IMG/VR virus record: IMGVR_UViG_3300046028_001086
Coordinates: 1 to 27,564 of that record
Reading direction: 5' to 3' (one strand)
DNA from: a virus
DNA: 27,564 nucleotides
The position numbers and the translations under genes are program-made. Under the pieces are notes generated by a model. The model searched no databases and was not told the origin of the DNA. It saw nothing but the letters and a program-made list of their open reading frames with translations. This document shows, in pieces, positions 2-20,813 of this stretch. Positions within the stretch are counted from its first letter, which is position 1. Every line of letters begins with the position of its first letter.

Positions 2-850
2 AGGAAAACAACACCAGCACCAGCACCTGTAGCTAAAGCTCCTGTTAAAGCTCCTGCTCCTGTAGCTAAAGCTCCTGTTAAAGCTCCTGCTCCTGTAGCT
101 AAAGCTCCTGTTAAAGCTCCTGCTCCTGTAGCTAAAGCCCCTGTTAAAGCACCTGCTCCTGTAGCTAAAGCCCCTGTTAAAGCACCTGCTCCTGTAGCTA
201 AAGCCCCTGTTAAAGCTCCTGTTAAAGCTCCTGCTCCTGTAGCTAAAGCTCCTGTTAAAGCTCCTGCTCCTGTAGCTAAAGCTCCTGTTAAAGCTCCTGC
301 TCCTGTAGCTAAAGCCCCTGTTAAAGCTCCTGTTAAAGCTCCTGCGGCTAAAGCACCTGTAAGTAAGCCAGCTGTTATGCCTGCACCTGCGGCTAAAACA
401 GCTACACCAGCACCTGCGGGCGTAGGTCTTGCTAATAAAGGGTTTGGTATAACAGGACAACAACCAACTACACCAACGCCTATAAATACGGGTATTGTGG
501 CTCCCAAAACATCTATACCAGCGCCAGTTGCTGTTGCACCTAAACCCGTAACACCAGCACCAGCACCAACACCAGCACCAACACCTATAACGCCTCCTGC
601 ACCCGCTCCAACTCCTGCGCCTATGGCACCTCCACCTCCTAATAGTATGGCGGGGCAAGAACAAGGACAACAAAACCTACAATCTAGGTTAAATGCTGCG
701 GGTCCAGCGGGCTGGAAAAAAGGTGGGGTAATTAATAAAAGTATGTTTAGTGCATCAACTAAAACTAAAACTAAAACTAAAGACGCTCCTGTTAAACCTA
801 GGGGTGTCGGTCTTGCTCAACGTGGATGGACTAAAGGGGGAATGATCTAA
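2..850 (+). CDS. Pro/Ala/Lys-repeat protein, 5'-partial, unknown function
   Basis: The frame is open from base 2 to the TAA at 848-850 (282 codons), so the ATG at 377 is almost certainly internal and the gene begins before the window. The first ~115 codons are an imperfect repeat of PVAKAPVKAPA. A Pro/Ala/Thr-rich linker follows, then WKKGGVINKSM (KKGG at 716-727) and a short (KT)n run. The protein ends GVGLAQRGWTKGGMI, and a related GVGLANKGF lies further upstream. No enzyme domain, signal peptide or membrane segment is visible; the protein should be disordered and basic. Its C-terminus resembles that of the next gene, with which it overlaps by one base (TAATG). A late-operon position suggests a virion or assembly role, but I do not recognise the family. 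Confidence 0.85.
   Translation, partial: RKTTPAPAPVAKAPVKAPAPVAKAPVKAPAPVAKAPVKAPAPVAKAPVKAPAPVAKAPVKAPAPVAKAPVKAPVKAPAPVAKAPVKAPAPVAKAPVKAPAPVAKAPVKAPVKAPAAKAPVSKPAVMPAPAAKTATPAPAGVGLANKGFGITGQQPTTPTPINTGIVAPKTSIPAPVAVAPKPVTPAPAPTPAPTPITPPAPAPTPAPMAPPPPNSMAGQEQGQQNLQSRLNAAGPAGWKKGGVINKSMFSASTKTKTKTKDAPVKPRGVGLAQRGWTKGGMI
26..346 (+). repeat. 33-nt tandem repeat array encoding PVAKAPVKAPA
   Basis: The 12-mer cctgtagctaaa starts at 26, 59, 92, 125, 158, 191, 236, 269 and 302. Seven of the eight intervals are exactly 33 nt. The exception (191 to 236) is 45 nt, because an extra 12-nt APVK block is inserted, and the same extra block follows the last copy. Every interval is a multiple of three, so the frame is kept. 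Copies differ mainly by silent gct/gcc/gca changes that cluster in neighbouring copies, as expected from slippage or unequal recombination. Short-read assembly could miscount copies here. Confidence 0.95.
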
Positions 851-1773
851 TGGCTACTGAACCAAAACGCTACGCTCAACGTGGGACTAAAGTAGGGGAG
901 AAAACTAAGCTTAAGTATAATCCTACTGCCCTTAGAGACGAACCAACGGTATCAAGAAATAAGTCTCTTTCATTTAGAGAAGACTTGAGTCCAAAAACTA
1001 GCACGGGCGGGAGCGGCGGTTCAAACCTTATTCCTCGTAATAAAGTAGACATGGCCTCTGGTAACCGCAATATAGGTAGCCAAGGCTCTAGTGCTAAAAA
1101 CATAGTTCCTAGAGGCACTAGCCAACTAGGGCCTGTAAGACCGGAAACACCAAGTTCTGCTAGAACTATGAAAGATGTACAAGGATCAAGCAGAACAGTA
1201 AATAAAGCCCTAACAGGCCCAGCAGAAAGCGTAGCTAGTAAAGTTGGAAGAGGCGCTACATTAGGTAGAGCGGGAACTGGAATCGGTGCTCTTTTATACT
1301 CTAAAAATGCAGGAGAAGGTAGTGACTTTAAAGGTAAGGATCGCCCAGCGCCTTACTCAGGGTTATCTAAACCTAAAGGGTATGAGATACCTGAAGACTT
1401 TGGTATGAAAAATCCATCTGAAGACTTTGGAGATAAAAAAGAAGCCTCTAAAACATCAACTGCTAAAACATCAACTGCTAAAACATCAACTGCTAAAACA
1501 TCAACTGCTAAAACATCAACAGCTAAAACAGGAACTTCTAAAGGTGAGTCACAGTCTAGTAAAGATTCTAGAATGGCAGCGTATGAAGATTGGGTAAAAA
1601 CTAATAGAGACTCTGCTACAGTGTCATATTTAAAAACAGGCCAAATGAAGAAAGGCAGTAAAGTTGCAGCTAAACCAATGAAAGCTTTTGCTAAAGGCGG
1701 TTCTGTTAGATCAGCTGCTTCTCGTGGTGATGGTTGTGCTACTAAGGGTCATACTAAAGGAGCAATGCGCTAA
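850..1773 (+). CDS. Disordered basic protein with (KTSTA)5 repeat, unknown function
   Basis: A 307-residue protein whose ATG overlaps the upstream stop (TAATG). It is rich in Ser, Thr, Lys and Gly, with no predicted globular core apart from a short hydrophobic patch near residues 141-150. Residues 201-225 are five KTSTA units. The last 30 residues contain FAKGGSV and end RGDGCATKGHTKGAMR, clearly related to the end of the preceding protein (GVGLAQRGWTKGGMI). I recall similar basic Gly-rich tails on small proteins of environmental phages but know no function. It lies in a run of three low-complexity genes between presumed upstream head genes and the small virion proteins. A scaffold, decoration or internal head component is possible but unproven. 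Confidence 0.85.
   Translation: MATEPKRYAQRGTKVGEKTKLKYNPTALRDEPTVSRNKSLSFREDLSPKTSTGGSGGSNLIPRNKVDMASGNRNIGSQGSSAKNIVPRGTSQLGPVRPETPSSARTMKDVQGSSRTVNKALTGPAESVASKVGRGATLGRAGTGIGALLYSKNAGEGSDFKGKDRPAPYSGLSKPKGYEIPEDFGMKNPSEDFGDKKEASKTSTAKTSTAKTSTAKTSTAKTSTAKTGTSKGESQSSKDSRMAAYEDWVKTNRDSATVSYLKTGQMKKGSKVAAKPMKAFAKGGSVRSAASRGDGCATKGHTKGAMR
1450..1524 (+). repeat. 15-nt tandem repeat, five copies (KTSTA)
   Basis: Five consecutive copies of aaaacatcaactgct lie in frame in the 307-residue protein. The first four are identical and the fifth has one silent change (act to aca). A sixth, degenerate unit (KTGTS) follows. The near-perfect identity suggests recent slippage expansion. Confidence 0.95.
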
Positions 1774-2444
1774 TGTCTGGGGGCGGAAATAGCGGTAGTG
1801 GAACACCCACTCCTCAAAGCTTAGATGCTGTAAGAAAAGCGGGTCTACCTGTAGGTAGTGGAGTTTCTACTGTAAGTAGTGGTATGCCTGATGTTCAAAA
1901 CTTAGACGCACTAAAAGCAGCTGGACTATCTACTGATACTACTGCCCCTACTGATTTCCAAAGCCTATTAAAAGCTCTGCAAGCTAAACAAGCAGGAGGG
2001 AGTGGCTTAACACCAGTTGCTGATGCGGGTTTACCTACAGAGGGAGCAGCGGCTCCTACAGGCTATGCAGATGGTGGTATTTTAGGTTTAGGTCAGGGTA
2101 ACATCAACGGTCAACAACTGAATACTCAGAACGGATATAACAACTACGCCTCTCCTAACCAAGGACTAATGGATTACCCACAGCAAGGGCAACCTAACCA
2201 ACCTCTTACTCCAAATGTACCTCCAGTGCAAAACAGTCCTAATATGGGAATGAACCCCCCAAATACTAATATGGGGTTTGATAATAGTGGTAGTGACGCT
2301 GGTATAGGTGGGCAGCCAGTAGGGCAAATGCAAACACCTCTACAAGGACAACCTCCAAGTATGTCACAATACATGTCCCCACAAGGGTTACAAATTCAGG
2401 GCAACCCAACTTCGATGCCCGTACAACGACAACAACAAAGGTAA
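1773..2444 (+). CDS. Gln/Pro/Asn-rich low-complexity protein, unknown function
   Basis: A 223-residue protein starting at a TAATG overlap. The N-terminal part carries two copies of a short helical-looking unit, SLDAVRKAGLP (residues 16-26) and NLDALKAAGLS (43-53), with a looser third version near QSLLKALQAKQAG. YADGGIL follows at residues 98-104, one of the recurring Gly-Gly motifs of this window. The C-terminal half is a Gln/Asn/Pro/Met-rich stretch ending VQRQQQR. No catalytic motif or membrane segment is seen. It is the last of three adjacent low-complexity genes. The Gln-rich composition resembles the internal virion proteins at 16738-20813, so a virion-internal role is plausible, but I do not recognise a family. 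Confidence 0.82.
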   Translation: MSGGGNSGSGTPTPQSLDAVRKAGLPVGSGVSTVSSGMPDVQNLDALKAAGLSTDTTAPTDFQSLLKALQAKQAGGSGLTPVADAGLPTEGAAAPTGYADGGILGLGQGNINGQQLNTQNGYNNYASPNQGLMDYPQQGQPNQPLTPNVPPVQNSPNMGMNPPNTNMGFDNSGSDAGIGGQPVGQMQTPLQGQPPSMSQYMSPQGLQIQGNPTSMPVQRQQQR

Positions 2445-2449
2445 CTACT

Positions 2450-2764
2450 ATGCGTCAGCAGATAGCAACTAAAACAGGTACAGGCTCAAGCAACATTCTT
2501 ACAACTGACACCTATATCAGCCCTTTTAACGTGGGTTTTGGCGTTGTAGCGACAGGCACAGTAAACTACACTATCCAACATACATTTAACAACCCACAAG
2601 ATGGAACTACTTTAGTATGGTACTCTCACCCAACTATTGCATCTAAGACAGATAATCAAGACGGTAACTACGCATTTCCTGTAGCGGCTATTAAGATTTT
2701 AGTAAACAGTGGTTCTGGTACAGCTACGATGACATTGATCCAAGCTGGCGTTGTAGGCGGCTAA
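2450..2764 (+). CDS. Small beta-rich virion-type protein
   Basis: 104 residues, starting 5 nt after the upstream stop with AAAGG about 8 nt upstream of the ATG. The sequence alternates short beta-type segments (VNYTIQHTFNN, TTLVWYSHPTI, TATMTLIQAG) and has no Cys, signal peptide or membrane helix. The arrangement 'hTF..pq.GTT..W..Hp.i..kT...dGNYAFPV.AI...V.SG.G..TMT..QAG' is one I associate with small structural proteins of environmental phages, though it has no assigned role. Its place among head and neck genes supports a capsid-decoration or minor structural function; this is inference. Confidence 0.8.
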   Translation: MRQQIATKTGTGSSNILTTDTYISPFNVGFGVVATGTVNYTIQHTFNNPQDGTTLVWYSHPTIASKTDNQDGNYAFPVAAIKILVNSGSGTATMTLIQAGVVGG

Positions 2765-2765
2765 G

Positions 2766-3005
2766 ATGCCTTATGTAGGGTATACAGGGGTTGCTGACTT
2801 AGCTAACACTACTGATGGTTTTGCTTTAGGTATAGGTGCTTGCAATGATCCTGCAGAAACGTCTTTTGGTGAAAATGTCGGTGATGGCGGTGTTGTAGAC
2901 TTATACCATAATGGCGCCCCTAATCTTAAGTCATATATTCTCATGGAATCTTCGGGATACGTATTCCAAGAAGATAGTTCTAAAATAGTATTGGAGTCAT
3001 CGTAA
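2766..3005 (+). CDS. Small hypothetical protein, possible minor structural protein
   Basis: 79 residues starting two bases after the upstream TAA, with its stop overlapping the next ATG (TAATG). It is acidic, with DPAETSFGENVGDGG in the middle and a C-terminus (YILMESSGYVFQEDSSKIVLESS spans the last 23 residues) that reads as two short repeated beta-hairpin units of the type ILMESSG and IVLESS. Such degenerate 'LLE.g' hairpin tails occur in phage structural proteins, but I cannot assign a family. The tight operon spacing and coding-like composition support a real gene. Confidence 0.7.
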   Translation: MPYVGYTGVADLANTTDGFALGIGACNDPAETSFGENVGDGGVVDLYHNGAPNLKSYILMESSGYVFQEDSSKIVLESS

Positions 3006-3607
3006 TGGCAGATCAGAAAATATCGGCAATGCCCGCAGCGGCAACTCCTCTAACAGGTGCAGAATTAGTACCCTTAGTTCAGTCAGGCGGGAATGTAAGT
3101 TCTACAATAGCTATGTTTGGGACTTATGCACGTAATACTCTATATAACTACGGGGCGTTTCAAGACTTAGGACTTGACCAAACAGCGGCGGCTAATACTG
3201 TTGTTCAGCTTCGCATTGATACTACTGACTTTACTCAGGGTGTTACTAAAGTAGGAAACCGTATAAGCTTAACTAATGCAGGTGTATATAGCATTATTAT
3301 TAGTCTTCAGTTATCTAATGATGATGCTGCCAACCCTGATGATTTTACTTTGTGGCCTGTTATTAACGGCACTGCAGCAAGTGGTTCTGCTAGTACTATT
3401 GGGGTCCCTGTTAGAAAATCAACTAAAAACGGTCACATAATCCTTACAGTTCAGTACACATTTCAGTTTGCAGCGGCGGGCTATTTTGAGTTTGACTGGT
3501 TTTCTATAGCGGGTCATGTATCAGTTTTAACCTTTCCAGCTAGTGTTGCTACGCCAATTCATCCAGCTTCTGCGGCTGTTATTCTTTCTGTTATTCAGGT
3601 AGGCTAA
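3005..3607 (+). CDS. Phage structural protein with C1q/TNF-like jelly-roll C-terminus (putative)
   Basis: 200 residues. The N-terminus (KISAMPAAATPLTGAELVPL, residues 5-24) matches a short segment common at the head of phage tail-fibre and virion-surface proteins ('KIS.LPaat.l.g.ElvP.vQ.g'). From about residue 45 on, the alternating strands, including NRISLTNAGVYSIIISLQL and the later TVQYTFQFAAAGYFEFDWF, resemble a C1q/TNF-like trimeric jelly-roll. The jelly-roll call is by pattern only and would need a structure model. It starts and stops in one-base overlaps with its neighbours, just upstream of the neck adaptor. A trimeric surface or decoration role is inferred. Confidence 0.78.
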   Translation: MADQKISAMPAAATPLTGAELVPLVQSGGNVSSTIAMFGTYARNTLYNYGAFQDLGLDQTAAANTVVQLRIDTTDFTQGVTKVGNRISLTNAGVYSIIISLQLSNDDAANPDDFTLWPVINGTAASGSASTIGVPVRKSTKNGHIILTVQYTFQFAAAGYFEFDWFSIAGHVSVLTFPASVATPIHPASAAVILSVIQVG

Positions 3608-4311
3608 TGAGTACTTCAGGTCTTACTACATTTAACCCAGATATAGCTGAGATAATGGAAGAAGCCTACGAACGTGTAGGTGTAGAAATTCGTACGGGTT
3701 ATCAGTTTAGAACAGCTAGAAGGTCTTTAAATTACCTGTTGGCTTCTTGGGCTAATAAAGGTCTTAATCTATGGACTATTGAACAAGGGGAGTTTCCTCT
3801 GTTAGTAGGAGTGGGCACTTATGATTTGCCTGATGATACTATTGATTTAATAGAGACTGTCATACGCCAAAACCCCGGAAGTACTTCTAACCAAGTTGAC
3901 CTGCAAATAGCTCGTATAAGTGTCTCTACATACGCAACAATACCAAACAAGTTAGTTCAAGGACGTCCTATACAGATTTTTGTAGATAGACAGTCTCCTA
4001 CACCTACAGCTAAGATATGGCCTCTACCTAGTCAAACTGGGTACACATTGGTCTATTGGCGGTTACGTAGAATGCAAGACGCAGGACAAGGCGGCGTAAA
4101 TACGCTTGATATTCCTTTTAGATTCTTAGAAGCTATGACTGCTGGACTAGCTTATAACCTAGCTCTTAAAACACCTGAAGCAGAAAGCAAGATACCAATG
4201 CTTAAACAACTCTATGAAGAGGCTTTTGAACTGGCGGCGGATGAAGATCGTCAACGAGTGTCTTTTAGATTTGTGCCTAACATAGGTAGTGTAGGCGGCG
4301 GGGGCTGGTAA
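3607..4311 (+). CDS. Head-tail neck/adaptor protein (P22 gp4 / SU10 adaptor-like)
   Basis: 234 residues with a TAATG start. The N-terminal helix-turn-helix block (residues 9-60) contains the pattern IAEIMEEAYERVGVEI, TARRSLNYLLASWANKGLNLW and then EFPLLVGVGTYDLP, characteristic of head-completion/adaptor proteins that dock under the portal (P22 gp4 and related podovirus adaptors). The middle is beta-rich, and a C-terminal helical bundle (DIPFRFLEAMTAGLAYNLAL...) closes the fold. It would stabilise packaged DNA and link portal to nozzle. A second adaptor-like gene lies at 5057. The family is assigned by pattern recall; the exact subfamily is uncertain. Confidence 0.8.
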   Translation: MSTSGLTTFNPDIAEIMEEAYERVGVEIRTGYQFRTARRSLNYLLASWANKGLNLWTIEQGEFPLLVGVGTYDLPDDTIDLIETVIRQNPGSTSNQVDLQIARISVSTYATIPNKLVQGRPIQIFVDRQSPTPTAKIWPLPSQTGYTLVYWRLRRMQDAGQGGVNTLDIPFRFLEAMTAGLAYNLALKTPEAESKIPMLKQLYEEAFELAADEDRQRVSFRFVPNIGSVGGGGW

Positions 4312-4647
4312 GTGGCTACTCCTTTTGCTGGTGAGAAACGGGCGTTTGGTTTCTGTGATAGATGTGGATTTAGATACGCCTTAAAAAGGATACGCACCTA
4401 TGTTATTATAGGTAAACGAGTAAACATGCGGGTGTGTCCAGAGTGCATGGACAAAGTTGGTGGCGACCACCCACAAAACTGGGTGGGTATAGTAGGGGCT
4501 CAAAAGGTAGCAAATGACCCACAGGCTCTACGCAACCCAAGACCAGATACGAATTTAAATGCCTCTAGAGGTCTATTTGCTTTTAACCCTGTGGCGACAC
4601 AGACTATTACCACCACATTGAATGATGTGTTTATTACAATTACTTGA
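4312..4647 (+). CDS. Four-cysteine zinc-ribbon phage protein
   Basis: 111 residues with a GTG start directly abutting the upstream TAA. Two CxxC knuckles are visible: C15-C18 in FCDRCGFRYAL and C42-C45 in VCPECMDKVGGDHPQNW, expected to bind one zinc. Small proteins with 'CDRCGF.y.l...r.......lRVC..C.D..HPQ' are frequent next to neck genes in phages, function unknown. The C-terminal third (residues 86-111) is a hydrophobic/threonine-rich beta strand segment. The position between two adaptor genes suggests a virion or assembly factor rather than a transcription regulator; that is inference. Confidence 0.82.
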   Translation: MATPFAGEKRAFGFCDRCGFRYALKRIRTYVIIGKRVNMRVCPECMDKVGGDHPQNWVGIVGAQKVANDPQALRNPRPDTNLNASRGLFAFNPVATQTITTTLNDVFITIT

Positions 4648-4649
4648 GG
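4646..4649 (+). promoter_or_regulatory. Ribosome binding site GAGG deciding start at 4656
   Basis: GAGG lies 6 nt upstream of ATG 4656 and overlaps the stop codon of the upstream gene. It favours this ATG over the in-frame TTG at 4644, which has no comparable site. Confidence 0.6.
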
Positions 4650-4655
4650 TATAAT

Positions 4656-4886
4656 ATGGCACAGTTTGAAGGTTCTTCTAAAGATGTTAAAGAAGACAAA
4701 AAATTAGCAAAAAAGAACAAGATGTCTATGTCTGATTGGGAAAAGAGCCCGAAAGATGCTAAGCACGACAAACAGAAATCTATGAAGGGTCTTAAGAAAG
4801 GTGGTATTACATCTATGGACGCTAAAAAAATGGGTCGTAATTTAGCCCGTGTTGCCAACCAAAAGAGTACTGGAAGAGGTAGATAA
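4656..4886 (+). CDS. Small lysine-rich protein with KKGG and MGRNLARVANQ motifs
   Basis: 76 residues, very rich in Lys with Asp/Glu interspersed. I chose ATG 4656 because it has a GAGG site 6 nt upstream and gives the natural start MAQFEGSSKDVKEDKK; a TTG four codons earlier is also open. The N-terminal half is a charged, probably helical or disordered stretch containing SMSDWEKSPKDAKHD. LKKGGITSMDAKKMGRNLARVANQ follows in two parts (KKGGI at residues 47-51; MGRNLARVANQ at 59-69). I recall small proteins of this make-up in environmental phages but no function. The basic charge would allow DNA or capsid binding. It overlaps the next small gene by one base. Confidence 0.75.
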   Translation: MAQFEGSSKDVKEDKKLAKKNKMSMSDWEKSPKDAKHDKQKSMKGLKKGGITSMDAKKMGRNLARVANQKSTGRGR

Positions 4887-5053
4887 TGGCTAAGCAACAT
4901 ATTGAAGGGTCTGCTGAATACAAGGGTGTTAAATCTGTACCTACTCCTGTAGGCAACGGCTACCCTGTTAAGATAGACAATAAAAAGACTATTAAAGTAC
5001 GTGGTACTGGTGCAGCTACTAAAGGCACGATGGCTTCTAGCAAAATGGGTTAA
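4886..5053 (+). CDS. 55-residue basic protein ending ATKGTMASSKMG
   Basis: ATG overlaps the upstream stop (TAATG) and TAA is at 5051-5053. The product starts MAKQHIEGSAEYKGVKSV and ends in the basic Gly-rich tail KVRGTGAATKGTMASSKMG. 'RGTGAATKG' resembles the C-termini of the genes ending at 850 and 1773 (GVGLAQRGWTKGGMI, GDGCATKGHTKGAMR), so it belongs to the same set of tagged proteins. No domain is recognised. Support comes from tight packing between two genes, three bases before the next ATG, and the motif. The gene is short enough to be missed by a 60-residue cutoff. Confidence 0.7.
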   Translation: MAKQHIEGSAEYKGVKSVPTPVGNGYPVKIDNKKTIKVRGTGAATKGTMASSKMG

Positions 5054-5056
5054 ACC

Positions 5057-5737
5057 ATGACGTATAATGAGTTAAAAACAGCTATCCAGCAGTATCTTAT
5101 GGTGGAATACGCTGGAGATGGGGCGGAACCTACGTTTGTAGCAAACCTTGATAACTTCATTAAAAACACTGAGATATTAATAAATAACTCGGTACAGCTC
5201 CCTGCGTTTCGTAAAAATGTAACGGGCACTTTTACTTCTGGGTTTCAGTATATAGACTTACCTGCGGACTTTTTATCTATATTCTCTTTAGCCGTTATCC
5301 CTAATACTACAGTTAATTTAGTCCCAACAGCGACTTACCAATACTTATTAAATAAAGATGTAAATTATATTAGAGAAGCCTACCCTTATCCTGTATCCAC
5401 AGGCATACCTAAATATTATAGTTTGTTTGATAACACTGCCCTTATAGTAGGGCCTACACCTGATTCTAGTTATGCAGTTGAAATGCATTATTATGCGTAT
5501 CCCCAATCTATCACTGCAACATCATCAGGTACAACTTGGTTAAGTCTTGAATTTCCCAATGCTCTGCTTTGGGGGTCTTTAGTAGAAGCCTATATATTCT
5601 TAAAAGGTGAGCAGGAATTAATTCAAACATATCAAACTAAATTCGATCAAGTTATGAATGAGATTAAACAATTAGGCGATGGTAAAAACCGTCAAGACTC
5701 TTATAGAACTACTCAAGTTAGAGATAAGGTAAATTAA
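5057..5737 (+). CDS. Second neck/adaptor-like protein
   Basis: 226 residues starting 3 nt after the preceding stop. An N-terminal helical region (MTYNELKTAIQQYL ... FIKNTEILINNSVQLPAFRKN) is followed by a beta-rich core (FTSGFQYIDLPADFLSIFSL, then GIPKYYSLFDNTALIVGPTP and YAVEMHYYAYPQSI). It ends in a helical tail (LLWGSLVEAYIFLKGEQELI ... VMNEIKQLGDG). This helix/beta/helix order and the 'P.yya..g..l.l.P.P...y.vel.Yy..p..l' block are typical of podovirus head-tail adaptor / tail-tube-A-like proteins. Two adaptor-like genes in one neck module are compatible with a two-ring neck as in SU10- or P22-type phages. Which is proximal to the portal cannot be told. Confidence 0.76.
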   Translation: MTYNELKTAIQQYLMVEYAGDGAEPTFVANLDNFIKNTEILINNSVQLPAFRKNVTGTFTSGFQYIDLPADFLSIFSLAVIPNTTVNLVPTATYQYLLNKDVNYIREAYPYPVSTGIPKYYSLFDNTALIVGPTPDSSYAVEMHYYAYPQSITATSSGTTWLSLEFPNALLWGSLVEAYIFLKGEQELIQTYQTKFDQVMNEIKQLGDGKNRQDSYRTTQVRDKVN

Positions 5738-5738
5738 T

Positions 5739-5843
5739 ATGAGTGAAGAAAACAAAACCCCTATTGCCGCTGTACTTAATAGCGTAAGCATACTAACAGA
5801 AAATAATGAGCCTGAAGAGGCTGTAGAAACCGAGGAAGACTAA
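5739..5843 (+). CDS. 34-residue acidic peptide, hypothetical
   Basis: ATG 5739 follows the upstream TAA by one base; TAA 5841-5843 overlaps the next ATG (TAATG). The product begins MSEENKTPIAAVLNSVSILT and ends in a Glu-rich tail (EPEEAVETEED). Besides the operon-like junctions there is no other gene that could fill this gap on the + strand. No function is known; an acidic chaperone-like or assembly peptide is only a guess. Confidence 0.55.
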   Translation: MSEENKTPIAAVLNSVSILTENNEPEEAVETEED

Positions 5844-6274
5844 TGGCTATAACCCAAGCGATAGCATCGACTTTTAAATCAGAGCTTTTAGGTGGATTGC
5901 AGAACTTTACTGCATCTACTGGAAACACTTTTAAAATAGCTTTATACACATCATCTGCTACTTTAAATTCAAGTACAACTGCATACACTACGTCTGGAGA
6001 ATTTCCAAGCACAGGTAACTATACAGCAGGCGGAAACACTTTAACAAGCCAGAGCATAACTTTGTCAGGTACTACAGCTTATATTGACTTTGCTGATTCT
6101 ACTTGGGCCAGCTCTACTATTTCTGCAGCTGGGGCATTGATATATAATTCCACTAATGCAAATAGAGCTGTATGTATATTAGATTTTGGTGGTACTTTTA
6201 CCTCAACTAACGGCGCATTTACGGTGGTATTTCCTGCACCTACAACTACTACTGCTGTATTAATACTAAACTAA
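5843..6274 (+). CDS. Phage virion structural protein (widespread small family)
   Basis: 143 residues, Ser/Thr-rich and almost all beta. The pattern AITQAIASTFKSELLGG ... FKIALYTSSATLNSSTTAY ... YTAGGNTLTSQSI ... IDFADSTWASSTISAAGALI ... VCILDFGGTF ... FTVVFP fits a phage virion protein family I recognise from many environmental phages, where it sits next to tail-fibre genes; its precise role is not established. No signal peptide or helix is seen. It is coupled to the 34-residue peptide upstream and lies just before the repeat protein at 6282, consistent with a tail-tip or fibre-associated subunit. Confidence 0.82.
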   Translation: MAITQAIASTFKSELLGGLQNFTASTGNTFKIALYTSSATLNSSTTAYTTSGEFPSTGNYTAGGNTLTSQSITLSGTTAYIDFADSTWASSTISAAGALIYNSTNANRAVCILDFGGTFTSTNGAFTVVFPAPTTTTAVLILN

Positions 6275-6281
6275 TAGAGAC

Positions 6282-7121
6282 ATGGCTGATGTTTCTGTAG
6301 GCATAAGAGGTTGGTCTGGCGGGGCATGGGGGGTTGAGGCGTGGAATACGCCCACCCCAACTACTTTTTTCTCTCCTCTAACGCTTACAGAAAGATCAGT
6401 AACAACAACTGCAGGTGCAACACCCTCGGTTACAGGTCAAAACCTTACTCTTACAGAAAACTCGGTAATTCTAAGTACGGGCCAAAGCTTATCGGTTACA
6501 GGTCAAAACCTAACCCTTACTGAGCGTTCGATATCTCTTTCTTTGGGAGCAACTCTATCTGTCACAGGACAGAACCTAACTTTAACGGAAAACTATGTAA
6601 GCGTCATTTCTGTTAACAGTGTTTTTGTTACAGGTCAAAGCTTATCACTTACAGAAAACTCTATATCTTTAAGTGCGGAACAAAGCATACCTGTTACAGG
6701 GCAAAACCTATTTCTTACTGAGTCCCCAATAGATTTAACGTTAGACGCGGCAATGCTTGTTACAGGTCAAGAGCTTGTTTTTACAGAGTCTTTAGTAGAT
6801 GTAATATCTGTTAATAGTGTTTTTGTTACTGGGCAAAGTATAGATCTTACAATTAATGACGTTAGCGCCCAAATATCTGTATACCCTGTTATTATAGGAC
6901 AAAACCTAAACCTAACTTTAAACGCTCCAAAATTTTGGTTTCCTGTTAATCCAGACCAAATACCTAATTGGCAGCAGATCAATAGCACCACTCCTGTAAC
7001 ATGGAGTGTAGTAAACACAACACAAAGTCCAAGCTGGGTAAATATAGGTACAAATCAGACACCCAATTGGTCTCTAGTAAACACCGTACAAAATCCAGAT
7101 TGGATTGACATACCCCATTAA
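6282..7121 (+). CDS. Solenoid-like repeat protein with 22-aa and 11-aa periods, probable tail component
   Basis: 279 residues. The N-terminus holds a glycine-tryptophan motif (RGWSGGAWGVEAW; W11, W16, W21). VTGQ-type motifs then begin at residues 50, 72, 94, 116, 138, 160, 182 and 204, an exact 22-residue period (consensus VTGQNLTLTE.SV). The C-terminal ~55 residues switch to an 11-residue period, with Trp at 230, 241, 252, 263 and 274 (consensus TPNWSLVNTTQ). The regularity predicts a beta-solenoid or stacked-strand shaft. Tail-associated phage proteins with such W-P-N-W tails are familiar from environmental phages, without a defined role. It sits directly upstream of the tail fibre, so a fibre shaft or baseplate-like linker is likely. 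Confidence 0.82.
   Translation: MADVSVGIRGWSGGAWGVEAWNTPTPTTFFSPLTLTERSVTTTAGATPSVTGQNLTLTENSVILSTGQSLSVTGQNLTLTERSISLSLGATLSVTGQNLTLTENYVSVISVNSVFVTGQSLSLTENSISLSAEQSIPVTGQNLFLTESPIDLTLDAAMLVTGQELVFTESLVDVISVNSVFVTGQSIDLTINDVSAQISVYPVIIGQNLNLTLNAPKFWFPVNPDQIPNWQQINSTTPVTWSVVNTTQSPSWVNIGTNQTPNWSLVNTVQNPDWIDIPH
6429..6920 (+). repeat. Eight 66-nt (22-residue) repeats, VTGQ-type
   Basis: Protein-level repeat units start at residues 50, 72, 94, 116, 138, 160, 182 and 204 of the 279-residue protein, with no insertion or deletion between units. DNA copies have diverged substantially (for example gttacaggtcaa, gtcacaggacag, gttactgggcaa), so the repeats are old and the spacing is maintained by selection rather than recent expansion. 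Confidence 0.93.
6954..7118 (+). repeat. Five 33-nt (11-residue) repeats with invariant Trp
   Basis: Trp occurs at residues 230, 241, 252, 263 and 274 in units of the type (Q)TPNWSLVNTV. The period is exactly half that of the upstream 22-residue array. Confidence 0.9.
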
Positions 7122-13499: not shown

Positions 13500-13508
13500 A
13501 GAATAAAT

Positions 13509-14870
13509 ATGGCATATAACCAAACTGCAAAAGGCATCTCAGCTCTAGGGCGTAAAGGCGATGACACCTTACTACATGTAAATAACGAAGAACTTGCTGG
13601 GCTCCAAGCCTTACTAGGCCCTATATCAGTTAACCCTGAAACGGGACTTCCTGAAGCATTTGCATGGAAAAAAGTACTAACCACTGGACTTATAGGTATT
13701 GCGGGTGCTTTAACAGGTGGAGCTGGTGCCGCTGCTTTAGGTGGTAAGGCTTTAGCTGGGGTAGGTTTAGGTGCAGGTCAAGGAGCTTTATTAGGTGGAG
13801 CACAAAGTTCTGCTGAAGGTAAAGGCTTTGGTTCTGGCGCACTAGGTGGAGCGATATCTGGTGGGCTTGGCGGTTATGGTGGTGTTGGTAGTTTTGATGC
13901 TTCTGGAGCAGGTTTAGACACTGCAGGTAAAGCTGGATTGGGTAAGTCTACCGCGCAAGCAATGTCCGCAGACCCAGTAAACCCACAGCTCACTTCTTTT
14001 AGTCAAAATATAGGTCCCGCACTCAATCAACAAGCCTCCGCTATGGGGTCTAAAGCAGGTATGGAGTCTTTACTCTACCCTGTAGGTGCAGGTACTGCAT
14101 TAGGTACTGCGGCTACTGATATGATACAGCAAGGTAATGCGGAGAGAGAACTAGCTAAACAACAACAAGCCTTAGCTGACGCCAATGCCTTAGATCAACA
14201 ACAGTACTTTGCAAGCTTAGGCTATGAGTTACCTCCACTAGCTTCACTTAATAACCCTAATAACGCTGCACAACGAGACTATATACAGAACATCATTAAC
14301 CCTAGAGGGGCTGCTGCTGGTGGTGCTATGACAGTACAACTGCCTATTGGTGGAACTCAAGTATCGGCTGTTTTACCTCCTAAGTACGTTGGTGTAATGG
14401 AGAAAGTAGATATACCTTATGAACAAAACGAAATTAAAAATGAACTAGGGCTGGCACATGGGGGGTATATCAATACTCAACCTGTAAACCCAAATAACAC
14501 CTACCCCCAGTCTCAAATACATAGTGCCCAACCCTATGCTGCGGCTACTCCACAACGTCATGAAGTACTAGATTACTATAAGGATGGCGGTTTTTTAGAC
14601 GGCCCCGGTGATGGAATGTCTGATGACATCGCTGCTAATATAGATGGGGAAGAAGAAATCAGATTGGCTGATGGAGAGTTTGTGGTACCGCCTGATCTAG
14701 TGCGTATGTTAGGCTTTGGTGATCCTGAAGAAGGTGCCAAGTTATTAGATAATCTACTGCCTATAGTAAGACAAGCGGCTCATGGTAAGAAAGAGCAGAT
14801 TAAACAAGATGCAGGTAAGTTGGCTGCTGAAAAGATGTTAGCTAGAGCGGTAAAAGGTAAGAAAGCGTGA
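13509..14870 (+). CDS. Internal virion (ejection) protein with C-terminal DGEFVVP module
   Basis: 453 residues. The N-terminus (AKGISALGRKGDDTLLHVNN, then EELAGLQALLGPISVNPETG) matches a family of phage internal/ejection proteins. Residues 56-128 are a long Gly/Ala hydrophobic tract likely to insert in a membrane, and a helical Gln-rich segment lies at about 205-235. The C-terminus holds AHGGYIN (316-322), YKDGGFLDGPGDGMSDDI (357-374), RLADGEFVVPPDLVRMLGFG (385-404) and a final basic helix. A degenerate version of this C-terminal module occurs in the protein at 15310. The GTGA overlap couples it to the cupin gene. Expected role: ejected with DNA to help form the trans-envelope channel; this is inference from context. 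Confidence 0.82.
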   Translation: MAYNQTAKGISALGRKGDDTLLHVNNEELAGLQALLGPISVNPETGLPEAFAWKKVLTTGLIGIAGALTGGAGAAALGGKALAGVGLGAGQGALLGGAQSSAEGKGFGSGALGGAISGGLGGYGGVGSFDASGAGLDTAGKAGLGKSTAQAMSADPVNPQLTSFSQNIGPALNQQASAMGSKAGMESLLYPVGAGTALGTAATDMIQQGNAERELAKQQQALADANALDQQQYFASLGYELPPLASLNNPNNAAQRDYIQNIINPRGAAAGGAMTVQLPIGGTQVSAVLPPKYVGVMEKVDIPYEQNEIKNELGLAHGGYINTQPVNPNNTYPQSQIHSAQPYAAATPQRHEVLDYYKDGGFLDGPGDGMSDDIAANIDGEEEIRLADGEFVVPPDLVRMLGFGDPEEGAKLLDNLLPIVRQAAHGKKEQIKQDAGKLAAEKMLARAVKGKKA

Positions 14871-15313
14871 ACTCCCTCCAGACTCAAGGCACTATAAACT
14901 CTATTGATGAGCTTGCTGTACGCATACAAGCTGGAGTGGACAGCGGAGAATTAGGTTCTGCAGAGACGCCTTTGACTCATTACCATACCAAAAATTTATA
15001 TGGGCGTAGAATTATTGTCCCAGCGGGTTGTTTGTTTACTACCAGAGTGCATAAAACAGATCATATATCTGTGGCTTTTAGAGGGCATATTACCATGCTA
15101 AATGCTGAAGGTGAGTCTCAAGAAGTTATAGCCCCTGATATGTTTATAACACCTGCTGGAACGCACCGTGTAGTATATGTGCACGAAGAAGTAGAATTTG
15201 CTACTATCCACCATTGTGAAGAGCAAGATGATGATAATGTTGTTGAGCTACTGTCGTTTAATACTATGACGGAATATTTGGACAACCAATTAAAAATAGG
15301 AGCAGCACAATGA
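14867..15313 (+). CDS. Cupin-fold protein, phage-encoded
   Basis: 148 residues, GTG start in a GTGA overlap with the upstream stop. The central part reads as a double-stranded beta-helix cupin: LYGRRIIVPAGCLFTTRVHK, then DHISVAFRGHITMLN and DMFITPAGTHRVVYVHEEVE. His38, His40, His62, His66, His106 and the His-His-Cys at 115-117 could bind a metal, but the canonical HxH-x3/4-E cupin motif is not intact. Similar small cupins are known in marine and freshwater phage genomes without an assigned reaction. The gene lies exactly between two internal virion protein genes that share a C-terminal module, and it overlaps the next by ATGA. A structural or binding role is as likely as catalysis. Confidence 0.82.
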   Translation: MNSLQTQGTINSIDELAVRIQAGVDSGELGSAETPLTHYHTKNLYGRRIIVPAGCLFTTRVHKTDHISVAFRGHITMLNAEGESQEVIAPDMFITPAGTHRVVYVHEEVEFATIHHCEEQDDDNVVELLSFNTMTEYLDNQLKIGAAQ

Positions 15314-16338
15314 GTCTTATAGCGGCGTTAACAACAGTAGGAGCGACACTTTCTGGTGGTCTTTTAGCAGGTACATCAGCGGCTATACTTGGAGGAGTAA
15401 CAGTGGGAACAGCAGCAGGTGCGGGAGTAGGGGCTATTTCGTCAGCGGCTCAAGGACAAGACGTAGGTAAAGGCGCCCTTATGGGGGCAGTTTCTGGGGC
15501 AGTAACTGGTGGGGTAGCTCCGGGGCTAGGTTCCGCAGTTGCCGCACCTCTTACCTCTGCAGTAGGTCCTGTAGCTACAGGAGCTATAATTGGAGGAACC
15601 GCTGGGGCCGCTGGTGGTGCTGCAGGTTCTGCTGTTGGTGGGCAAGATGTAGGTAAAGGCGCTTTAATGGGTGGTGCCACAGGAGCCGTTGCTGGCGGTA
15701 CTATGGGGGCTATAGGCCCTGCTCCAGCAACAGGGGATTTAGCTTCTGCTGCTGGAGGTACTCCTGTATCTGCTGACCCTGTAGGTACTGCATCTGCAGG
15801 TACGGCGGGAGAAACCATAGGTACTGGCGTTACATCTGTACAACCCTCAGGGGCTCTAGGTGACTTAGCTCAAGGAATATCTAGTGCAGGTGCTCCCGTT
15901 ACAAGCGGTCAATTAAGTACGGGTCTTACAGGACTAGCAGGAGTTGCTGGTACTGAGTATGCAGGTAAAAGTATAATAGACGCCCAAGATGCTGCAGCTA
16001 AAGCCGCAAGTGAAGATAAAGCACGAGGTTTGGATTTTGCTAATCAAGGTGGTTCTGGATTAGCCGGAGTAAGAGCAGCGGGGTTGTCAGATGGTACAGG
16101 CCCATTAGGGGGTCTTGGAAGTATAGGTAGAGCTACTGGTGGTATTACAGCTCTGGCACATGGGGGTCAAATTCCTCTTGGTGATGGTGCCTATATTATC
16201 CCTGCTGATGTGGTTAGTGCTCTGGGTAATGGTTCATCTAAAGCAGGTGCTGAATATCTAAGGCAGCTTATGGTTGCAGTGCGTAAAGAAGCTGTTGGTC
16301 GTCAAGGCATGGGAGCGGCTATAAAGCATGTCTCTTAA
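15310..16338 (+). CDS. Gly/Ala-rich internal virion (ejection) protein
   Basis: 342 residues, ATGA overlap start. The first ~140 residues are almost entirely Gly, Ala, Val and Thr, with glycine-zipper spacing suggesting membrane insertion or tight helix packing. They contain two copies of GQDVGKGALMGxxxGAVxGG (residues 49-68 and 111-130). A helical linker (KSIIDAQDAAAKAASEDKAR) precedes the C-terminal module ATGGITALAHGGQIPLGDGA, YIIPADVVSALGNGSSKAGA and EYLRQLMVAVRKEA (275-328). This resembles the end of the 453-residue protein and of many phage internal proteins ('DGEfViPADVV..LGnGS..aGa..L..m...VR'). Its stop overlaps the GNAT-like gene by 11 nt. Role: a probable ejectosome component. Confidence 0.8.
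   Translation: MSLIAALTTVGATLSGGLLAGTSAAILGGVTVGTAAGAGVGAISSAAQGQDVGKGALMGAVSGAVTGGVAPGLGSAVAAPLTSAVGPVATGAIIGGTAGAAGGAAGSAVGGQDVGKGALMGGATGAVAGGTMGAIGPAPATGDLASAAGGTPVSADPVGTASAGTAGETIGTGVTSVQPSGALGDLAQGISSAGAPVTSGQLSTGLTGLAGVAGTEYAGKSIIDAQDAAAKAASEDKARGLDFANQGGSGLAGVRAAGLSDGTGPLGGLGSIGRATGGITALAHGGQIPLGDGAYIIPADVVSALGNGSSKAGAEYLRQLMVAVRKEAVGRQGMGAAIKHVS
15454..15513 (+). repeat. Glycine-zipper repeat, copy 1
   Basis: Encodes GQDVGKGALMGAVSGAVTGG. Copy 2, at 15640-15699, encodes GQDVGKGALMGGATGAVAGG, 62 residues later. The protein identity is high, while several codons differ silently. Confidence 0.85.
15640..15699 (+). repeat. Glycine-zipper repeat, copy 2
   Basis: Second copy of the unit at 15454-15513, identical over the first ten residues (GQDVGKGALM) and similar afterwards. 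Confidence 0.85.
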
Positions 16339-16741
16339 AGTCCAACAAGTACCTATCGAATATGTGAACCAGATATGGGATCACGTTGAACATTTTATAG
16401 AATCAGCTCTTGAATACTCCTCTGGGGACTACAATGCCGAAGAGGTAAGAGTGATGGTAACACAAGGGTCGTGGCATCTTATAGTTGCTGTTGATGACGA
16501 AAATACTATACAAGGAGCCTTAGTTGTGTCTTATTTTAATAGACCCTCTGAGAGAGTTGGATTTGTAGTGGCTATTGGTGGTAAACTAGTATCTAACAGG
16601 TCCACATGGGCTCAATTTGAAGACATACTCCGGTCAAACGGTGCTACTTATTTAGAAGGTGCAGGTCGTGAATCTATAGTTAAGCTATGGTCTCGATATG
16701 GCATGAAGCAAAAATATATAATTACAGGTAAATCCCTATGA
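16328..16741 (+). CDS. GNAT-like (N-acetyltransferase fold) phage protein, possibly degenerate
   Basis: 137 residues, starting inside the previous gene (11-nt overlap) and ending in an ATGA overlap. The order fits a short GNAT fold: an N-terminal helix (YVNQIWDHVEHFIESAL), strands SWHLIVAVDDENTIQGALVV and RVGFVVAIGG, a helix (STWAQFEDILRSNGATYLEG), and the closing AGRESIVKLWSRYGMKQKYI with the Arg-x-x-(W)...YGM ending typical of phage GNAT-like proteins next to internal virion genes. The Q/RxxGxG/A acetyl-CoA loop is not clear, so activity is doubtful. Related small proteins are frequent in podovirus-like genomes, substrate unknown. Confidence is good for the fold, low for catalysis. Confidence 0.72.
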   Translation: MSLKVQQVPIEYVNQIWDHVEHFIESALEYSSGDYNAEEVRVMVTQGSWHLIVAVDDENTIQGALVVSYFNRPSERVGFVVAIGGKLVSNRSTWAQFEDILRSNGATYLEGAGRESIVKLWSRYGMKQKYIITGKSL

Positions 16742-19110
16742 TATTCAAACCAAGTAGTCTTCACAAAGTATTCTTTACCTACATCTGCCCTAGGTTCTAT
16801 GGCGGTGCACCACCAGTGCCTTCAAACACTACAACCACTTCTACGGTTAATCAGTCTCCATGGCAAAACCCTGTCTACCAAGCTCTTATGTTAGGTACTA
16901 AAGACCAACCGGGTCCTGCAACTAGTATGTTAAATGCTAGTAGAGAGCAAATGGAACAATGGAACGCCATTAATAAAACAGGTCTTACTCCAGCAGCACA
17001 AGCTTCTTTAGGTACATGGAACCCTGACGTTCCCGGAAGTACTTCTAGTTATATTAATAAGTTAGACCCAGCTACAGGGCAATACACTCCAACTGCTAAT
17101 CCTAATGTTGCTGCCCCTATTGAGCAAAGTGCCGCTCAAGGAGGCATAATGAGCCTTAGGGGGTATGCTAGTGGAGGAGCAATAGACCCTGTTCAACAAA
17201 CAGTTATGGACCTAGTTGGGCGCCAACTAAGTGATACAGACCTTGCTGATTTAAAACGGTACTCAACCCAACTTAATACAACTCCTGCTGCACTAATGCA
17301 GCAGTATAATGGTCCAGAAATAGCCGCATGGAAAGCAGCGCCACCAGAGAAGAAAGCAGCCACTTATCAAAAGATAGTAGATGCAGGAGGTAACATATCA
17401 CCCGCACAAAACACCATGCTATCTAACTTTAATACCTACAAGAGTCAGATAAAGGCGGGAACTATTAAACTAGATGCATCAGGAAACCCCACAGCTAATA
17501 TTAAACAAGGGGCTACTAAAGCCGAAAAAGATGCTGCTAACGCTGCGTTCACTAAAGCCACAGGTATTGAACAAACCACAGGAAAAGCACCTTATGGTCT
17601 AATGGACACCATGAAGAAAATTGCTAATGTCGATCCTAAAACACTTAAATCTACTGATCCTGCTGTACTAGCGGTGTTAGATAAAGCGGCTAATTTAAAA
17701 ACCCCAGAACAATTTGCTGCAGCTACCGATATGTATGGTAAGTCTGCAGCAGGGTTAGAAGCAGCTGCAAAATATAAACCCACCAATGTCAGTGCTAAGA
17801 AAGCCGATGTGGCTAATGCTGCTAGTAAAGGGTATACAGCCGCTAACGCCAACGCTGCTCAACTAAATAGGGGTAGTGTACGTGACATAGCCGCTAAACA
17901 AGCCAGTGTAGATAAATACAAAGCTGATATGATGGCGGCGCCTTCTGATATAAACGCACAAGAATATCAAGCGGCTTTAGCTGATTTAAACCAAATGGAA
18001 GGCCCACAGTCTTGGATAGGCCAAGGTACATCAGAAGCCTATATGTCTCCTTACATGCAGAACGTAGTGGATATACAAAAAAGGGAATCTAATAGGGACT
18101 ACGCTAAACAACTACAAGACTTAAACAAACAAGCCACAGCCGCAGGTGCTTTTGGTGGGTCTCGTCAAGCTATTGAAAGGTCTGAAGCTGCACGTAATCA
18201 AGCAACTAAACTAGCTGACATTGAAGCTCAAGGACTACAACAAGCGTACCAATCAGGTATGGGTCAATTTTCTGCAGAACAAGGCTTAAAATTACAAGCA
18301 GGACAAGCTAATTTAACCGCTGCACAACAAACAGCTCAACAAAATCAAACTGCAGTTAATCAACAACGGTCTCAATATGTTCAACAAGCCCTTGATGCAG
18401 CTAAAAACAATTACGGGGGTCAGTTAACAGCGGCTCAGCAAAATCAAGTAGCTCAAAATGCGGCATTGCAGTTCAACTCCTCTGCTCAAAACTTATCTAA
18501 CAACAATTTTGTTCAACAGCAGATGCAAGCTCAACAAGCAAACCAAGGTATGGACTTTAATGTTGGGCAAATGAACACGACTAATCAACAACAGACTAAC
18601 TTAGCTAATCAACAAGCGGCAAACCAAGCGTCTCAGTTTGGAGCTAGTGCCCAGAATACAGCTAACTTAGCTAATCAACAAGCGGCAAACACTGCTAACA
18701 ACGCCTATGTGCAAAACCAATTAACCGCGGGTCAAGGTAATCAACAAGCGGGGCTAACTGCTAATCAACAGGGTATAGGGGCTCTTCAAAATATGGGGCA
18801 AATTGCTTCAGGATTAACAAGTACAGGCTCTGCTCAAAATGCGGCTGACTTAGCTACCTTAGGGGCTCAAGGACAAGCAGCTAATGCAGGACAAAACCTA
18901 GCTCAAAGTGTCCTTGATGCACAATCAGGTAACGCCGCTACTTGGCTCAATGCTCCTACTTCTATTAATGCAGGGGTAGTTAATACCTTGGGAGGTCAGA
19001 ATGTACAAGGAGGTACCGCAACAACTACAGGAACTGCAATGCCCGCCAAAGCATGGGCTCGTGGTGGGTTAATTAAGAATGGTAAAGTAAGCAACAGAGG
19101 TAAAAAATAA
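16738..19110 (+). CDS. Large Gln/Ala-rich internal virion protein
   Basis: 790 residues, ATGA start. After an odd hydrophobic/aromatic leader (residues 8-22, LHKVFFTYICPRFYG), the protein is polar and helical. QGGIMSLRGYASGGAID (134-150) contains two Gly-Gly motifs. The centre carries the blocks AYMSPYMQNVVDIQKRESNR (434-453), QATAAGAFGGSRQAIERSEA (465-484) and KLADIEAQGLQQAYQSGMGQ (491-510), which I recognise as a conserved region of internal proteins in many phages. The rest, to about residue 720, is Gln/Asn/Ala coiled-coil-like repeat. It ends WARGGLIKNGKVSNRGKK. Expected in the capsid interior or ejectosome; its TAATG junction couples it to the next internal protein. Confidence 0.82.
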   Translation: MIFKPSSLHKVFFTYICPRFYGGAPPVPSNTTTTSTVNQSPWQNPVYQALMLGTKDQPGPATSMLNASREQMEQWNAINKTGLTPAAQASLGTWNPDVPGSTSSYINKLDPATGQYTPTANPNVAAPIEQSAAQGGIMSLRGYASGGAIDPVQQTVMDLVGRQLSDTDLADLKRYSTQLNTTPAALMQQYNGPEIAAWKAAPPEKKAATYQKIVDAGGNISPAQNTMLSNFNTYKSQIKAGTIKLDASGNPTANIKQGATKAEKDAANAAFTKATGIEQTTGKAPYGLMDTMKKIANVDPKTLKSTDPAVLAVLDKAANLKTPEQFAAATDMYGKSAAGLEAAAKYKPTNVSAKKADVANAASKGYTAANANAAQLNRGSVRDIAAKQASVDKYKADMMAAPSDINAQEYQAALADLNQMEGPQSWIGQGTSEAYMSPYMQNVVDIQKRESNRDYAKQLQDLNKQATAAGAFGGSRQAIERSEAARNQATKLADIEAQGLQQAYQSGMGQFSAEQGLKLQAGQANLTAAQQTAQQNQTAVNQQRSQYVQQALDAAKNNYGGQLTAAQQNQVAQNAALQFNSSAQNLSNNNFVQQQMQAQQANQGMDFNVGQMNTTNQQQTNLANQQAANQASQFGASAQNTANLANQQAANTANNAYVQNQLTAGQGNQQAGLTANQQGIGALQNMGQIASGLTSTGSAQNAADLATLGAQGQAANAGQNLAQSVLDAQSGNAATWLNAPTSINAGVVNTLGGQNVQGGTATTTGTAMPAKAWARGGLIKNGKVSNRGKK
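18596..18624 (+). repeat. 29-bp direct repeat, copy 1
   Basis: A 29-bp stretch identical to 18662-18690, exactly 66 nt (22 residues) apart, in frame in the Gln-rich internal protein. It encodes TNLANQQAAN-type sequence and suggests a recent duplication of a 22-residue unit. Confidence 0.88.
18662..18690 (+). repeat. 29-bp direct repeat, copy 2
   Basis: Identical to 18596-18624; the intervening 37 nt are not duplicated again. Confidence 0.88.
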
Positions 19111-20813
19111 TGGCGGCCCCAGTGACCAACCAAAACTACACCCAGCAAATTAATCAAGCTTTTGATATGCTGAAATACGCCACCCCACAACAGATGCAAG
19201 TAGTATCTCAACAAGTACAACAGAACCCTAATAGTCCTGAAGCAATGGCTTTAGCTATGGCAGCACAGTACCAACAACAAGCTAGAGCGCCTCGTCCCCA
19301 AGCTCCACAAGGTACTATACTGCAACAGAAGCTACAAGAGTTTCAACAAACATCTCCACAAGGCTTACCACAAGTAGGCCAAAACCAGATGGCTATGCAA
19401 CAAACAGCTCAACAAAACCCTATGTTTGGTGCAGGACTAGCGGTAGCCCCTGAGAATACTGAACAAGCTCCTCAACAAATGGCAGCAACAGGTGGTATAA
19501 CTGCTTTAGCTCGTGGTGGAGAGGTTAGAGGTTTTGATGGTACAGATGGTAGTTTAGCTAAGTTAGTAGAGGACGAAAATGCAGTAGAAGACGCGGCTAC
19601 CACTGAAGAAGATGGTATAGCTAATGAAGGGAAGTGGTTTGAAAACTTTGCAAAACAAGCTAATAACACAGATACTGATCTCTTAAATAAATATAAAGCT
19701 TATACCAATACAGCACCTAGTGCAGGACTACCATCAATTAATTTAGGAGGAGACTTATCTTCGCCTTATGGTAAGTACAAACCACCTACGTTAGACGCTC
19801 CTATTTCTAATATGGGTATGCCTATTGAACAAACTAGTCCTAAAGATGATTACAGGCTGTCAGATATGGTGGCACCTAGACATAAAGTTAAAAAAGAACC
19901 TGAAGGTAAGCATAGAGTAGTACATACCCCTGCAGACACTAGTTCAGCTGCACGTAATGAAGCAGCTCCTACAGCTAAAGGAGAGACATACCAAGGCTTA
20001 GATAAGTACCTCTCTAAAGGGGTTGTAAACCCTAGTTCTTATGATGCGGACGCCGTAGTGGCGTCTATGTTAAACAAAGATACTACTCCACATCTTACAG
20101 CAGAAGAGTCAATAGCAAGATATCAGGAGCTATTAGGCCCTGAAGCCGATATGTCTGAAGAAGTAGCTATGGCTAGAGAAAATGCTGCAAACGCTAGTAG
20201 AGACAAAGGGCTTGGTGCATTAGTTGGAGGTATAGGTGGTATGTTATCTGCTCAAACTCCGTATATGGGTCAAGCAGTAGGTGCAGGTCTTATGTCTGGT
20301 CTCTCATCTTATCAATCAGGTGCTAAAGAACAAGGCACTGCAGATAAGGAATTAATGGCTCTACAAATGGCTCAAAAGAAATCTGACCTTGCAGGTCGTA
20401 GAACTGCTGCTGAGGCGTATATAGGTCAACAAGCTAAGATGGCTGAGAAAGCAGAAGAAGCTAGGGCTAAAAGAGAAGAGACAATGCTTGGAATTAGAGG
20501 AAATTACGGCGTTGAACAGGTAAGAGGCGCTAATGCTGCAAATGTAGCAAAGATTAATGCTGCAAGTGACCAAGCTAAACAAATGTTAGCAAACATGTCA
20601 GAAATGGATAAAGCGAGGTTTGTAGCAGGTACTCTGACAGCTAAGGATATAGCAGCCGCCGCAGGTTCTGGACTACGAGGTGGGTTGGAGTGGAAAGATA
20701 TACAAGCTACTATGGAGGGGATACTAGGAATGACAGGGGTGGGTCCTAATCCTGCTGGTTCTAGTGGGGGCGGATTTGGACAACCTATAAAAAATGGAAT
20801 GTATATAAAATAA
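19110..20813 (+). CDS. Internal virion protein with ATGGITALARGG motif
   Basis: 567 residues, TAATG start. It has a Gln-rich N-terminal third (ATPQQMQVVSQQVQQNPNSP onward), then MAATGGITALARGGEVRGFD (124-143), an acidic/disordered middle (145-330), a short Gly-rich hydrophobic segment (DKGLGALVGGIGGMLSAQTP, 365-384) and a long charged coiled coil (about 410-500, e.g. QQAKMAEKAEEARAKREETM). The C-terminus (FVAGTLTAKDIAAAAGSG ... FGQPIKNGMYIK) is Gly-rich. The architecture matches internal/ejection proteins encoded just upstream of the giant transglycosylase. No enzyme motif. A gap of 40 nt before the next gene is one of the two largest in the window. Confidence 0.8.
   Translation: MAAPVTNQNYTQQINQAFDMLKYATPQQMQVVSQQVQQNPNSPEAMALAMAAQYQQQARAPRPQAPQGTILQQKLQEFQQTSPQGLPQVGQNQMAMQQTAQQNPMFGAGLAVAPENTEQAPQQMAATGGITALARGGEVRGFDGTDGSLAKLVEDENAVEDAATTEEDGIANEGKWFENFAKQANNTDTDLLNKYKAYTNTAPSAGLPSINLGGDLSSPYGKYKPPTLDAPISNMGMPIEQTSPKDDYRLSDMVAPRHKVKKEPEGKHRVVHTPADTSSAARNEAAPTAKGETYQGLDKYLSKGVVNPSSYDADAVVASMLNKDTTPHLTAEESIARYQELLGPEADMSEEVAMARENAANASRDKGLGALVGGIGGMLSAQTPYMGQAVGAGLMSGLSSYQSGAKEQGTADKELMALQMAQKKSDLAGRRTAAEAYIGQQAKMAEKAEEARAKREETMLGIRGNYGVEQVRGANAANVAKINAASDQAKQMLANMSEMDKARFVAGTLTAKDIAAAAGSGLRGGLEWKDIQATMEGILGMTGVGPNPAGSSGGGFGQPIKNGMYIK

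Follow-up and report, generated by a model that had tools for sequence, protein, structure and literature searches.

In phage T4, a capsid-targeting sequence is the only part that the internal proteins have in common (PMC3012670), and these proteins touch the DNA through lysines (PMC3012670, PMC9024508). In phage P1, 30 residues of DarB suffice for loading into the capsid (PMC9024508). Encapsulins, which have the HK97 fold, load their cargo by means of terminal, often C-terminal, peptides (PMC7355545). Here, we describe a repeated Gly-Gly (GG) peptide motif in eight genes of the virus record IMGVR_UViG_3300046028_001086 (positions 1 to 27,564, 27,564 nucleotides, hereafter the window), whose gene set is of podophage type (SU10 adaptor, stabilisation/nozzle). 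In some of these genes the motif opens a conserved C-terminal peptide, referred to as the tag. Judged from sequence and gene position, motif and tag look like an undescribed tag for placing proteins into the virus particle.

The resemblance to the internal proteins of T4 and to P1 DarB is that diverse, otherwise unrelated late proteins have nothing in common but a short conserved peptide. The T4 and P1 signals are N-terminal, and processed in T4, whereas 154 of 156 copies of the tag lie within 20 residues of the C-terminus; this and the other counts on viral contigs are among the matches listed. The tag also differs in being about 28 residues long and strongly conserved across its lineage, and sequence similarity to the T4 or P1 signals is not claimed. 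The likeness to the encapsulin peptides, by analogy, lies in a terminal peptide on unrelated proteins with an HK97-type capsid gene nearby. The encapsulin shell is a cellular compartment, whereas the shell here would be a phage capsid of the Phage_capsid_4/Mu gpT type.

All the peptides listed by the initial annotation are present, each in the gene assigned to it (genes are named by window coordinates): WKKGGVI and WTKGGMI in 2-850, FAKGGSV in 850-1773, YADGGIL in 1773-2444, LKKGGIT in 4644/4656-4886, LAHGGYI and YKDGGFL in 13509-14870, ATGGITALAHGGQI in 15310-16338, QGGIMSLRGYASGGAI and WARGGLI in 16738-19110, and ATGGITALARGGEV in 19110-20813. GG dipeptides overall are not enriched in the proteins of the window (93 observed versus 97.5 in shuffles). 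Because the bare GG count equals the expectation from composition, the signal sits in the residues flanking GG. The enriched pattern is [WFYLMI][AKSTRE][KRNDEHSQT]GG, in which GG directly follows a polar residue and the position three before GG is hydrophobic or aromatic. It was found 11 times in the eight genes against 1.36 expected (P ~0.001), and at chance level in the other 21 genes of the window (2 versus 1.89 expected). The two chance matches are IASGGAG in the fibre-like gene and IRNGGIY in the nozzle. Shuffled and reversed proteins match the pattern far less often, and simple low complexity was rejected as its source. The repeated GG motif is real. Genes 1773, 16738 and 19110 carry it without either of the C-terminal tags described below. 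Occurrences outside these tags are as follows.

713 to 733, + strand: WKKGGVI, GG opener upstream of the C-terminal tag in gene 2-850, a gene that runs off the 5′ end of the window
2064 to 2084, + strand: YADGGIL in gene 1773-2444, with no tag after it
14451 to 14471, + strand: LAHGGYI in gene 13509-14870
17137 to 17181, + strand: QGGIMSLRGYASGGAI, paired GG motifs in gene 16738-19110
19054 to 19107, + strand: WARGGLIKNGKVSNRGKK-stop, C-terminal GG motif (WARGGLI) of gene 16738-19110
19485 to 19526, + strand: ATGGITALARGGEV, paired GG motifs in gene 19110-20813

Since the pattern was fitted to the window, fair tests of it lie elsewhere. Distant relatives were found via the nozzle protein (identity 43% or less), and in these a longer form of the motif was observed 62 times, against 20.5 +/- 4.7 in shuffled and 18 in reversed proteins. 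MinM2 is a cultivated freshwater phage with a late gene order closely similar to that of the window and an annotated replication region. The motif occurs 5 times in its five equivalent proteins (0.91 expected) and is absent from its 68 other proteins, replication included (4.56 expected). Among aligned orthologues of the window genes, GG and its residue classes are retained in nearly all, while the proteins otherwise average ~41-84% identity; WARGGLI is identical in both divergent orthologues of gene 16738-19110. L103, L106, L109 and L111 (records G003, G004, G005 and G009) encode basic proteins with up to six repeats of the MKKGGKV/FKKGGMI type; these lie on the strand opposite to the nozzle gene and are without the RADG tag.

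The GG motif is several things and not one, as it occurs in three contexts. In the first, it forms the N-terminal part of the tag, [MYFL]xxGGxVSSASxRADG(I/C)AxRGKTKGRxV-stop. It opens this tag in two or three head-side genes of the window. WTKGGMI, one of the peptides listed by the initial annotation, belongs to this longer element.

800 to 847, + strand: RGVGLAQRGWTKGGMI-stop, divergent C-terminal tag copy of gene 2-850 (compare RADGIAQRGKTKGRMI-stop); the invariant columns R, G, A, G, T and G are retained
1687 to 1770, + strand: FAKGGSVRSAASRGDGCATKGHTKGAMR-stop, C-terminal tag of gene 850-1773

A degenerate DNA pattern built on the shared RxDGxAxxGKTKG core served to collect copies of the tag. 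Positions left free in the pattern are conserved all the same. Ahead of the core, one position is S in 97% of copies and another is A in 90%; GG keeps a constant spacing; and the residue three positions ahead of GG is M, Y, F or L in 145 of the 156 copies. With the tag removed, 126 protein bodies fall into 72 clusters. These bodies are basic (median isoelectric point (pI) 9.7 versus 5.8; P = 1.6e-17 for net charge per residue) and contain few hydrophobic residues. Synonymous codons in the tag vary freely, so selection acts on the peptide. In 257 billion bases of cellular genomes the same pattern yielded six matching stretches, two of them without tag context and one a probable chimera. A conserved C-terminal tag almost certainly exists. 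About 30% of tags extend for some 7-14 residues more, many to a second GG and then a Cys near the stop, as in KMLKKGGMTC and TMITMKGGGYAC (tagged proteins in L122, L126, L132, L145, L151, L165 and others). A tagged acyltransferase (L356:162-2003) was set aside as probably an assembly chimera; there a truncated second copy of the enzyme breaks off and runs straight into the tag, close to the end of the contig.

The tag has a fixed place in the genome. A capsid gene lies upstream of it on the same strand in all 44 loci that have one (median distance 2.6 kb), and an SU10-type adaptor lies downstream in 63 of 65. The capsid of these loci is of the Phage_capsid_4/Mu gpT type, HK97-type. To avoid circularity, a second search was made by the capsid protein alone. 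At least 597 contig stretches matched; 80 loci were kept, and the 41 with at least 3 kb downstream were counted. One to four tags follow the capsid gene in 28 of these 41. In the other 13, the search expression had missed divergent tags that are clear in four loci and weaker in two. No tag was seen upstream or antisense in the 41 loci. The capsids of this lineage (L380-L456; MinM2, 619-1527) are 83-100% identical among the 80 kept loci and 72% identical to that of a cyanobacterial isolate. Only MinM2, Pag-Yong1 and Pra-JY27 carry the tag among 50,697 isolate records. The phage group bearing it is large and mostly uncultivated.

In the second context, seen in two genes after the nozzle, GG belongs to a C-terminal GEFV module. 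The end of 13509-14870 (YKDGGFLDGPGDGMSDDI...LADGEFVVPPDLV) recurs in the gene after the nozzle of distant relatives, and a shortened form makes up the C-terminus of 15310-16338. Genes 13509 and 15310 are not wholly unrelated, contrary to the initial annotation, because they share this module.

14577 to 14855, + strand: YKDGGFLDGPGDGMSDDI...ADGEFVVPPDLV..., GG-GEFV module, common to tape-measure and other ejected-type proteins
16132 to 16335, + strand: ATGGITALAHGGQIPLGDGAYIIPADVV..., short form of the GEFV module, C-terminal in gene 15310-16338

The module of 13509 gives a strong profile match to a gene of DSL-LC04 annotated as tape measure, and is homologous through DSL-LC04 to the tape-measure region GPGTxxSDSIPAxLSDGEFV. 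Via DSL-LC04 it reaches 329 isolate phage records, of which the matches listed are mostly annotated as tape measure. The GPG..SD..GEFV region of tape-measure proteins is recognised in 13509, and in shortened form in 15310, which fits ejected proteins. In contrast to tape-measure proteins, GEFV occurs here in podophage-type proteins of other sizes. Viewed by eye, lambda gpH is arranged in the same way (FATGGFTGTGG...RGEFVFTKEATSRIG), but it gives a weak profile match (probability 2.4%) and direct homology was rejected; gpH is a look-alike only. The PDB chain 9e7m_Ha (lambda gpH residues 818-849, 32 residues) ends in MRDGGLFS, a hydrophobic-x-x-GG at a tape-measure C-terminus.

In the third context, GG precedes a second tag, GRNLARVxNQ, at the terminus of gene 4644.

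4791 to 4883, + strand: LKKGGITSMDAKKMGRNLARVANQKSTGRGR-stop, second-type C-terminal tag of gene 4644/4656-4886

GRN[LM]ARVxNQ is carried by 96 proteins, in every case at a distance of 1 to 11 residues from the end, and GG lies upstream of it in 85. In a 23-member cluster, a tiny protein combines a RADGIAxKGKT-like start with a GRNLARVxNQ end. This combination suggests, at the level of sequence, that the RADG and GRNLARV tags belong together.

The best explanation, by analogy with the T4 and P1 capsid-targeting sequences, would be that these elements act as docking tags through which the procapsid takes up DNA-binding and ejected proteins. A modular terminal peptide is kept while the bodies turn over, near the capsid gene and on basic, hydrophobic-poor proteins, and a loading tag is the simplest reading of this. 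That the tag sorts proteins into the head may be put at slightly below an even chance. The initial annotation had raised a shared sorting tag as a possibility. This is well supported for the head-side genes, where dozens of unrelated proteins, encoded at a constant position of the head cassette, bear a modular and near-strictly C-terminal peptide; 13509 and 15310 are better explained by the module shared with tape-measure proteins. On this view, the GG motif would be a short docking element that recurs in proteins destined for the particle interior. As the procapsid assembles, the tag would bind an inner surface made of repeated units (capsid, scaffold or portal ring), and its protein would be recruited in this way. 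The basic bodies would then rest on the packaged DNA, and GEFV-bearing proteins may be held at the portal until they exit via the tail. In the manner of T4 and its internal proteins, the phage could exchange cargo freely, the tag being the sole part kept. We infer that the receptor is capsid, scaffold or portal, and that tagged and ejected-type proteins may have it in common. A wider proposal is more tentative: a lineage-wide C-terminal capsid-loading code of mostly uncultivated podophages, in which the tag, perhaps with GRNLARV, would sort fast-changing cargo and the GG opener would dock tape-measure-like ejected proteins too.

Several points weigh against procapsid loading. Binding of DNA or RNA elsewhere than in the particle is another role for which the basic bodies would be suited. 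Family and structure searches found no tagged protein with a known function or a solved relative: PHROGs and Pfam scans gave no functional family for any credible tagged protein among those scanned, the only matches being 'virion structural' for the body of one tagged cluster, and the search of solved structures with tagged proteins, gene 4886 and the GEFV module gave nothing convincing. AlphaFold2 yields no fold for the tag (low confidence), which fits a linear motif and does not demonstrate one; for the GEFV module, the model shows disorder near GG and helical structure following GEFV, again at low confidence. The full tag was not found in ejected-type proteins, and one common receptor is a guess. 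The loose motif is also not exclusive to internal proteins, as RFRxGGF stands near the terminase C-terminus in some relatives. Terminase-like genes of L360, L363, L366, L371, L375, L099 and L094 have a conserved [RI][FI]R[QKHS]GG[FLY] near the C-terminus of proteins of ~500 amino acids (807 as called in L094); the MinM2 terminase is without this GG. This segment, similar in general form to the motif, may contact the portal. A literature search for the letters of the tag or for such a motif found nothing.

Tagged genes sit between the capsid and adaptor genes, a usual place for cement and head-completion genes. The tag could anchor small decoration, cement or neck proteins clamped outside the shell or at the portal-adaptor junction. 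We regard this as rather unlikely, as several tagged proteins occur per phage and their basic, hydrophobic-poor, very diverse bodies are unlike compact folded cement proteins. Basic bodies, together with the KAPAPV and TAKTS repeats in genes 2-850 and 850-1773, would also suit small DNA- or RNA-condensing proteins in which RGKTKGR-type ends form a nucleic-acid-binding tail and GG is a mere hinge. A charged tail would not need features as specific as the conserved hydrophobic residue ahead of GG, the SAS and DG core and a constant spacing to the stop, and the motif is also found in acidic proteins (1773-2444, pI 4.4; 13509-14870, pI 5.0); such a tail is improbable. It is doubtful, but deserves weight, that there is no common function at all, and that mere likeness has brought together a tape-measure module, two small-protein tags unrelated to each other and GG matches due to chance. 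The sequence downstream of GG does differ between the three contexts. Yet a similar opener, hydrophobic-[AK]-polar-GG-x-[VI], is seen in all of them, and the enrichment, which recurs in distant relatives, is limited to these genes in both the window and MinM2. Even so, the C-terminal tag itself would stand.

The option of protease recognition, also raised by the initial annotation, has GG as a maturation-protease site that removes the C-terminal tag or separates domains. Tape-measure proteins of lambda and T5 are cleaved proteolytically in tail morphogenesis (PMC10038345). Lambda gpH has FATGGFT and YATGGYV near its C-terminus. Against this, the capsid protein of MinM2 and the protein encoded just before it are without the motif. 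Known head proteases usually cut those two proteins as well, and the protease site was rejected. The spacing of the adenovirus protease consensus differs from that of the GG motif. A scan of the eight MinM2/L131 head and tail proteins turned up no protease family, and the T5 tape-measure protein is cut after Arg1127 (PMC10038345). Cleavage at GG is very improbable.

Other features of the window were recorded. Both tagged genes contain in-frame tandem repeats, at 26-345 (KAPAPVAKAPV arrays) and 1448-1542 (TAKTS arrays), which resemble basic histone-H1-like tails. A 36-bp tandem repeat (22668-22902) encodes VAGAPVxGxEE arrays in a 2235-residue protein (20854-27561; SLT and LPD38 domains). No RNA family was matched within the window.

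5000 to 5050, + strand: RGTGAATKGTMASSKMG-stop, end of gene 4886-5053, with a resemblance only to the RxxGxAxxG core of the tag and no database match

If the tag does load proteins into the head, the internal proteins of an extensive phage lineage (at least 597 contig stretches) could be recognised from sequence by a simple rule; culture collections contain almost no example of this tag. The tag would then also serve as a portable peptide for studying how HK97-fold capsids select their contents. With MinM2, Pag-Yong1 and Pra-JY27 in cultivation, the idea is testable now.

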